Origin: Marine Group I thaumarchaeote
Lineage (GTDB): Archaea; Thermoproteota; Nitrososphaeria; Nitrososphaerales; Nitrosopumilaceae
DNA length: 39,747 nt
Direction of reading: 5' to 3'
Assembly (NCBI GenBank): GCA_013390375.1
Contig: JACATA010000010.1
Location: 1 to 39,747, forward strand
Part shown: positions 33,022-34,978 of the stretch, one piece after another
Layout of the letters: the number at the start of each line of letters is the position of its first letter
Numbering within the stretch: the stretch's first letter is position 1
Notes under the pieces: model-generated
The model's database searches: none
What the model saw: only the letters and a program-made list of their open reading frames with translations
What the model was told of the DNA's origin: nothing
Program-made: the position numbers and the translations under genes

Positions 33022-33074
33022 ACTAATGTCCGATTATTCCCATTTATAATCTTGAGTATAAAATTACAACATAG

Positions 33075-33947
33075 ATGAAGTTAGATGTTTTTTCACATTG
33101 CACCATTGATACGATACAGATAAACGATTCAAAATATGTTGTTCCAGGTGGTCCTGCTTGTTATTGTAGTCTGACTGCTAGAATTTTAAAATTTGACGTT
33201 AGATTACATACAAAATTTGGTTCTGATTTTCCACTTGTTAACTATTTAACTGAACAAAAAATTGTATTTGAAGATGCGCTATCAACGAAACCTACTACAC
33301 AATTTATACTAAATTTAGTAAATTCGGAAAGAACATTATTTTTGCAAAACAAATGTGAATCTATTAACAGTGTCACATTGGATACTGACAGTGTCATAAT
33401 CAGTCCGTTATTTGATGAAATTTCAATTGAGTTGTTTGAAAAAATTAAAAAGAATGCAAACTTTGTTTTATTGGATCCTCAAGGATTTTTGAGAAGAAAA
33501 AATTCAGAAAACAAGATATATCTTGAACAGGCTGATCTAAATTTATCTAATATTTCAGCGATAAAAGTAAACCAAGATGAACTAAAATATCTTACAGGTA
33601 CATCCAATGTTGATGGAATAAAAATTCTTCAAAAAAAAGGAATTGATAGTGTGATTCTAACTGATAAGCAAAACATATCATTGTTGTCTAAAAATAGAAT
33701 TTATTCTATAACATTACCTAATCTTGAACTTGTTGATACTACTGGAATTGGTGATATTTTTTGTGCAGCGTTTTGTTGTACCATGTTAAGGGAAAAAGAT
33801 ATTCTTTGGGCACTTAGTTTTGGAGGAGGAGCTGTACAAGCTGCATTAGAAAGTAAGCAAATAGGTCTGGAAAAGATTCCATCAAAAGGCGCTATAGAAT
33901 CAAATGCATATTATTTTTATAACACAGTAAAATTCAAAGAGATTTAA
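33075..33947 (+). CDS. PfkB-family (ribokinase-like) kinase
   Basis: 290 residues. The N-terminal substrate side has VVPGGPACYCS, and the C-terminal signature DTTGIGDIFCAAF contains the anion hole and catalytic aspartate (GxGD). These enzymes phosphorylate sugars, nucleosides or inositol with ATP; the substrate cannot be assigned from sequence alone. The two-glycine GGPA motif and several cysteines are near the substrate site. It is followed after 29 bases by the NAD-kinase-like gene, possibly in the same transcript. Confidence 0.88.
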   Translation: MKLDVFSHCTIDTIQINDSKYVVPGGPACYCSLTARILKFDVRLHTKFGSDFPLVNYLTEQKIVFEDALSTKPTTQFILNLVNSERTLFLQNKCESINSVTLDTDSVIISPLFDEISIELFEKIKKNANFVLLDPQGFLRRKNSENKIYLEQADLNLSNISAIKVNQDELKYLTGTSNVDGIKILQKKGIDSVILTDKQNISLLSKNRIYSITLPNLELVDTTGIGDIFCAAFCCTMLREKDILWALSFGGGAVQAALESKQIGLEKIPSKGAIESNAYYFYNTVKFKEI

Positions 33948-33976
33948 TTTTTATTATACGCTGAAAATTGTCTATT

Positions 33977-34978
33977 ATGCGTATTGGTATAGCAGGGATA
34001 CAGACTACTGAACTTGCAGCAAAATCAATCCGAGAAACACTCTCTGATGCAGGTTTTGAGTCATTTTATTTCAGAAATAATTCTAAAATTACGATGGCCG
34101 ATTTAGTAATTGTTTTAGGAGGTGATCGTGGTGTACGAAATTATTTTCATAGAGCTTTAGATGTAGATACACCAGTTTTAGGAATAAGCGAATCAGAGTC
34201 TAATGGGGTTTTAGCTCAAATTGAATTGAAAGATCTTCCTTCTTATCTTAATCGTATAAAAAAGCAAGATTATGTTATTGAAGATGTTCCAAGAATTGGT
34301 GTAAAGGTTGATGGTAAAAATACCTACCCTGTTCTTAATGACGTATCTGTTTTTACATCAAAAAGTGCTACATTGATGGAATATATTTTACGAGTTAATG
34401 ATGAGGAGGTATGGCATGATAGTAGTGACGGTGTAATTATCTCTACCCCAACTGGTTCTTCTGCGTATTCCTTGTCTGCTGGTGGACCTATTATTTTTCA
34501 GGCTTCAAATGTATTTGGAATTATTTCAGTTAACTCTTTAGATATAACCAGAAGACCAATCATAGTTTCTGATAACAGTATCATAGAAATTGATGAAATT
34601 TCATCACGTTTGCACTGTGATGTAGTTTTAGATGGAATAGATAGATTCAAAATTAACAATAAACTTGAGGCAACAAAGTTTACACCATCAGCAAGGATAA
34701 TTCGTATGAAAGCTGATTCTACAGCTATATCTGCGCTTGCAAACAAAGTAAAACTAGCAGAAGAATTATTGTCTATGCCACCGAGTTCTAAGCTTTTATT
34801 AAAAATATTAGAATATGAGGGTTCAATGACACAGAAAGAGCTTGCATCAAAAACATTACTGCCAGGTAGAACAGTTAGGCTAGCTATGAAGCATTTAATG
34901 GATAAAGGTTACATAAAAAGAAAGGTTTCAATGCAAGATGCTAGACAAAAAATTTATGAAATTGCAAAACTGGATTAA
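33977..34978 (+). CDS. NAD-kinase-like protein fused to a C-terminal winged helix
   Basis: 333 residues from ATG 33977 (TTG 33968 also possible). Residues 1-255 have the NAD kinase fold, best marked by DGVIISTPTGSSAYSLSAGG (151-170). The nucleotide motif that is normally GGDGT is GGDRG here (48-52), the NE motif reads ND (121-122) and the usual GDGQ segment is DGID (219-222). The catalytic aspartate position is kept. Residues 268-333 form a winged helix-turn-helix (LEYEGSMTQKELASKTLLPG, then LMDKGYIKR). It may be the cell's NAD kinase, or a sensor of NAD/NADP or ATP acting as regulator. It ends four bases into the convergent pyrG gene. Confidence 0.85.
   Translation: MRIGIAGIQTTELAAKSIRETLSDAGFESFYFRNNSKITMADLVIVLGGDRGVRNYFHRALDVDTPVLGISESESNGVLAQIELKDLPSYLNRIKKQDYVIEDVPRIGVKVDGKNTYPVLNDVSVFTSKSATLMEYILRVNDEEVWHDSSDGVIISTPTGSSAYSLSAGGPIIFQASNVFGIISVNSLDITRRPIIVSDNSIIEIDEISSRLHCDVVLDGIDRFKINNKLEATKFTPSARIIRMKADSTAISALANKVKLAEELLSMPPSSKLLLKILEYEGSMTQKELASKTLLPGRTVRLAMKHLMDKGYIKRKVSMQDARQKIYEIAKLD

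Follow-up and report, generated by a model that had tools for sequence, protein, structure and literature searches.

The gene at positions 33977-34978 of the window, the whole stretch of 39,747 nucleotides from a Marine Group I thaumarchaeote that was analysed, very probably encodes a ligand-controlled transcription factor that sets NAD supply, either through synthesis or through precursor uptake, with GGCAA-N3-TTGCC as its putative operator. In the model that we suggest, this factor is a paralogue of NAD kinase that, as its sequence and the kinase-domain tree show, has lost the G-T of the phosphate-donor loop, has kept the catalytic Asp and the NAD pocket, and carries a C-terminal winged helix. 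As an oligomer, it would bind GGCAA-N3-TTGCC, often together with a second, weaker site at a distance of 30-31 bp, or about three helical turns. Where NAD is made de novo, the target would be nadA; in several organisms without this route, it would instead be a transporter gene whose product probably takes up a pyridine precursor. NAD or NADP in the pocket would change DNA binding, such that expression of nadA or the transporter gene would fall at high cofactor levels, and the NAD kinase activity of the cell would be supplied by a separate, canonical enzyme.

The original prediction had proposed that a kinase-like domain joined to a DNA-binding domain may be a regulator sensing NAD, NADP or ATP, or a bifunctional kinase-repressor, and could link redox status to transcription. 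The winged-helix match, the presence of the fusion in relatives and the existence of a second NAD kinase all favor the regulator as read from the sequence. The link to transcription is also supported, in a narrower form: gene adjacency and a common palindrome point to the biosynthesis of NAD, and probably to the uptake of its precursors, and not to redox status in general.

Domains and nucleotide pocket of the fusion protein

The fusion gene and its parts are located in the window as follows.

33977-34978, plus strand: NAD-kinase-like/winged-helix fusion protein, 333 aa plus stop (open reading frame, Pfam, phmmer)
33977-34711, plus strand: NAD-kinase-like ligand domain, residues 1-245 (Pfam PF20143 and PF01513; Foldseek to NAD kinases)
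34118-34132, plus strand: GGDRG, residues 48-52, replacing GGDGT (alignment of 50 fusions)
34337-34342, plus strand: N121-D122, the NE/D motif, retained (alignment)
34442-34468, plus strand: STPTGSSAY, residues 156-164, NAD-pocket motif, retained (alignment)
34631-34636, plus strand: D219-G220, the DG of the C-terminal DGQ-like segment, retained (alignment)
34781-34975, plus strand: winged helix-turn-helix, residues 269-333 (Pfam HTH_24 and MarR; model and Foldseek; conservation)

The open reading frame begins with ATG, and an in-frame TTG lies at 33968. Pfam, phmmer and Foldseek agree on the NAD kinase fold that had been predicted for the N-terminal part, which we place at residues 1-245. In Pfam, NAD_kinase_C (PF20143) matches residues 120-228 with 1.5e-19, over the cut-off, and the N-terminal NAD_kinase domain (PF01513) matches residues 39-99 with 4e-5, just under it. 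A phmmer search with the fusion protein returned NAD kinases of known structure (7mh7, 7qvs and 1yt5) with E-values of 1e-18 to 1e-20. The NCBIfam NAD kinase equivalogs match at 1e-34; because the best score, about 118 bits, falls far short of the cut-off (326), the fusion is a relative and not a member. The overlay on NAD kinases that had been proposed as a check was likewise obtained, with an AlphaFold2 model that was built from 14 close sequences and is of modest quality (pLDDT 66.8); Foldseek aligned it to NAD kinases (E-value 5e-20), among them the structures 7qvs, 1u0t and 1yt5.

The last 65 residues had been described as a winged helix, and both Pfam and Foldseek bear this out. HTH_24 (PF13412; 1.6e-7) and MarR (PF01047; 2.9e-6) match residues 273-324, both over their cut-offs. 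Folded alone, the C-terminal 89 residues reached a pLDDT of 80.6 and were paired by Foldseek with winged helices of the MarR, TrmB and Lrp type with a probability near 1.0; the E-values were weak, as the small size of the domain would lead one to expect. In the model, the wing takes the form of a helix, with low confidence. In the alignment, LP-R-T at residues 295-299 and R323 are nearly invariant in the winged helix across the phylum.

The nucleotide pocket was compared between 50 aligned fusion proteins and 11 canonical paralogues. All 50 fusions share G48, D50, N121, D148, D151, G152, P158, G160, S161, G169, G170, D219 and G220, and the TPxGS motif of the NAD pocket is kept; from NAD kinase structures, we take D50 to be the catalytic Asp that points to the 2'-OH group of NAD. 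By contrast, T52 is lost in 50/50 fusions and position 51 is R or K in 41/50, while G51-T52 is kept in 11/11 canonical paralogues. Thus, the predicted replacement of GGDGT by GGDRG at residues 48-52 holds, and the loss of G-T is a real change. With GGDRG, the fusion does not match the phosphate-donor motif GGDG(T/N/S/M); the active variants of NAD kinase that have been reported differ at the position following GGDG (N, S, M and others) and not at that G (PMC8553519). Together, the conserved pocket residues and the lost G51-T52 indicate that the site has been preserved on its NAD side and altered on its phosphate-donor side. The DG of the segment read as DGID is D219-G220, as had been stated. 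Residues 121-122 do read ND in place of NE; the idea that this is an altered motif was dropped, since NE (23/50) and ND (27/50) are both found among the fusions.

Distribution of the fusion and its gene neighbors

The second NAD kinase that the original prediction had envisaged is encoded elsewhere in the same genome and is canonical, with GGDGT and no winged helix. In a class-level sample of 200 genomes, nearly all Nitrosopumilaceae hold the fusion, as do further families of the order and the class, and the genomes that have it usually hold a second, canonical-type match as well; families f4, f6, f7, f13 and f15 gave a weaker, canonical-type match only. When whole fusions were sought in Thermoproteota with a profile search of 398 genomes at the level of the phylum, full-length fusions were found in many distant families. 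Thus, nearly all close relatives hold the fusion, as expected for the proposed regulator, and its reach extends far beyond the class. The fusion was not found in three Nitrosopumilaceae genomes that are more than 90% complete (G154, G175 and G177). In the viral contigs scanned, matches to the NAD kinase domain (24-34% identity) and to the HTH were separate, and none covered the whole fusion.

In a kinase-domain tree, 40 fusions and 11 canonical enzymes, all of the latter from the class of the window organism, separate cleanly with an SH-aLRT support of 100. Given this clean split, a single origin of the fusion is the simplest reading.

In six distant families (f19, f22, f26, f43, f60 and f75), nadA, which encodes quinolinate synthase, lies directly beside the fusion in 20 loci, mostly in divergent orientation, and is often followed by nadC and nadX; the identities of NadA, NadC and aspartate dehydrogenase were confirmed on example loci. 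A transporter gene adjoins the fusion in several of the fusion-bearing families where nadA was not found, and encodes an MFS protein of the aromatic acid/H+ symport class, an ABC system or a transporter of the amino-acid-permease type. We infer that these transporters probably carry niacin or another pyridine precursor. In some families, the genes flanking the fusion include neither nadA nor an obvious transporter gene.

Two of the families deserve separate description. In family f45 (L175-L177, L179 and L180), a branched-chain-type ABC operon with a binding protein is divergent from the fusion and may serve to import a pyridine precursor; these loci yielded no strong palindrome. In family f35 (L127-L130 and L198), the fusion and an amino-acid-permease-like gene are transcribed divergently, and the spacer in L129 and L198 holds GGCATTTTTTGCC; nadA was not found in the four f35-group genomes tested.

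The arrangement is a different one in most ammonia-oxidising archaea examined: the fusion follows pfkB, near a divergent rpS26e, and is convergent to pyrG. In ammonia oxidisers, the fusion gene is not adjacent to nadA. Two further features of the window belong to this neighborhood.

33075-33947, plus strand: PfkB-family kinase gene immediately upstream of the fusion (23 bp gap), a conserved partner in most ammonia-oxidising archaea examined
33022-33074, no strand assigned: divergent spacer between rpS26e and pfkB, the presumed promoter region of the pfkB-fusion pair; no GGCAA-N3-TTGCC, best nearby match 7/10

The PfkB-family kinase at 33075-33947 is divergent in sequence, with a Pfam E-value of 4e-12 and scores far under those of the ribokinase equivalogs. 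Self-regulation of the fusion in ammonia oxidisers was considered and dropped, as the promoter of the pfkB-fusion pair is without the site.

The palindrome GGCAA-N3-TTGCC

Most fusion-bearing genomes carry GGCAA-N3-TTGCC in front of nadA or of the transporter gene. The divergent spacers between nadA and the fusion hold GGCAA-n3-TTGC(A/C). In the genome of the window, GGCAAAACTTGCC lies upstream of nadA, between nadX and nadA, on another contig (G000:C11:19770-19782), and is the sole intergenic perfect copy in this genome, the other two perfect copies lying within coding sequence. At this locus (L253:3935-6649 of G000:C11), the palindrome separates the tandem genes nadX and nadA, and nadC lies in convergent orientation; the regions in front of nadX and nadC showed no match of 8/10 or better.

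Sites were scored as the number of matches to ten fixed positions within about 220 bp upstream of nadA, and the very incomplete genomes G538 and G550 were set aside from the comparison of promoters. A score of at least 9/10 was reached by 32/42 nadA promoters in fusion-bearing genomes versus 1/18 where the fusion was not found (p 3e-7, corrected for G154) and, at the level of the genus, by 16/24 with the fusion versus 0/13 without it (p 6e-5, from the first Fisher counts, which placed G154 among the fusion-bearing genomes); these p-values are to be read with the age of both traits in mind, because of which phylogenetically independent contrasts of site against fusion are few (3-5 pairs, not significant) and significance is out of their reach. 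The exception is G154, a genome from the genus of the window organism that has a perfect nadA site and in which no fusion was found; because it is 92% complete, the gene may have been missed in an assembly gap or may have been lost recently. The nadA promoters of four fusion-bearing genomes (G188, G196, G559 and G561; L227, L259, L229 and L234) are without the standard palindrome, and those of G196 and G188 hold GGCAA and TTGCC half-sites at other spacings.

In genomes without nadA, the palindrome precedes the transporter gene, with a score of 10/10 in L143, L214 and L216 and of 9/10 in L140, L215, L219, L221 and L198. Across about 100 neighborhoods, 16 of the 17 intergenic sites scoring at least 9/10 sit at the fusion, nadA or a transporter gene. 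Within the Nitrosopumilaceae, among the matches listed, which comprise one or two loci per genome, all perfect palindromes inspected that lie between genes and have a gene downstream stand in front of nadA, 56-78 bp from its start. Perfect 15-mers (TGGCAA-N3-TTGCCA) occur seven times in 30 genomes; three are in coding sequence and four precede nadA, one of the latter in the distant family f38. A wide regulon was considered and dropped, because the other perfect palindromes inspected lie in coding sequence, save one at a contig edge.

A spacing of 30-31 bp between two sites is seen repeatedly (L140, L214, L215 and L218), and a degenerate, weaker second site in nadA promoters peaks at +31 bp. 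In the nadA promoter of the window's genome, the end of this second site lies, by eye, some 12 bp upstream of a CTTTAAA TATA-like box. Such a geometry suits a tetramer or paired dimers beside the TATA box, and fits repression or activation alike.

Alternative readings and relation to known systems

An enzyme that still phosphorylates NAD, perhaps with a phosphate donor other than the usual ones, while acting as a transcriptional regulator too (compare bacterial NadR, which joins enzyme and repressor activities) would be in keeping with the invariance of D50 and of the NAD-pocket residues in 50/50 fusions. We nevertheless consider such a bifunctional protein unlikely, as T52 is missing from all 50 fusions and R/K mostly replaces G51, versus G-T in each of the 11 canonical paralogues, the genome already holds a canonical NAD kinase, and the active variants reported change only the residue after GGDG (PMC8553519). 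Instead, we infer that kinase activity has been lost in the fusion. It is also quite unlikely that the fusion is a regulator while the palindrome belongs to a different, co-occurring transcription factor. The distance between fusion and nadA in the genomes of ammonia oxidisers would fit such a factor, the phylogenetic contrasts are underpowered and the assignment of the site to the fusion is drawn from sequence; however, distant families carry the site in the very spacer between the fusion and nadA or the transporter gene, nadA promoters nearly lack it where the fusion was not found, and the residues of the putative DNA-reading helix are strongly conserved. Adjacency and co-occurrence thus suggest that the fusion itself binds the palindrome.

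Winged helices can serve as protein-protein modules, and together with the low confidence of the modelled wing this leaves some room for an NAD-kinase-like enzyme whose winged helix is for oligomerisation only, with no role in transcription. The phylum-wide conservation of LP-R-T and R323, and the adjacency to the genes of one pathway combined with a common palindrome, make this reading very improbable.

As for the ligand, the transcription factor that we favor probably senses NAD(P). Because Arg/Lys 51 lies beside the Asp facing the 2'-OH of NAD, we speculate that NADP may plausibly be preferred. More tentatively, the fusion may represent a phylum-wide NAD regulator made from a retired kinase, in which R/K 51 would have produced a dedicated NADP(H) sensor that reads the product of the active paralogue and sets de novo synthesis or uptake.

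The NAD regulators that we found described (NadR, NiaR and NrtR) are bacterial. In Sulfolobus, nadA and nadB rose upon deletions of Nudix genes, and an NrtR-like HTH was sought among the Nudix proteins and none was found (PMC10311068). Our literature search, which had most subscription journals outside its reach, returned no paper on an NAD-kinase winged-helix regulator. The analysis names a candidate regulator, a putative operator and candidate target genes for NAD supply, conserved from ammonia oxidisers to distant Thermoproteota, and would provide an example of a kinase converted into a sensor alongside an active paralogue that was kept.

The design has parallels in several known systems. 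In NrtR, the enzyme domain of a cofactor metabolism has likewise been turned into a sensor and carries a C-terminal winged-helix-like DNA-binding domain, and the mycobacterial nrtR gene is divergent from nadA-nadB-nadC with its site between them (PMC6800001). However, the sensor of NrtR is a Nudix domain, while that of the fusion is an NAD kinase, with no Nudix match in Pfam at E-values up to 1. Similarly, NadR joins a repressor to enzyme domains of NAD metabolism and controls de novo NAD synthesis (PMC6800001). NadR consists of an N-terminal HTH, an NMN adenylyltransferase and a ribosylnicotinamide kinase, whereas the fusion has a C-terminal HTH on an NAD kinase fold, and Pfam detected neither of the two NadR enzyme domains in it. 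The proposed mode of action thus resembles that of NrtR and NadR, but because the defining domains of both are absent, the fusion falls outside these two groups. The ligand domain of NiaR is unrelated to NAD kinase. NiaR resembles the proposed regulator in its targets, in that it controls genes for NAD synthesis and niacin uptake (PMC5343564, PMC6800001). With NAD kinase itself (NadK/PpnK), the fusion shares the fold, the catalytic Asp, the NE/D motif and the TPTGSTAY-type motif, but it differs in the altered GGDGT, the added winged HTH, its separate clade and its scores far under the NCBIfam equivalog cut-offs; we do not class it with the NAD kinases, since its phosphate-donor motif departs from that of the enzyme. 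Finally, the fusion has its winged HTH in common with transcription factors of the MarR/TrmB type (PF13412, PF01047 and Foldseek).
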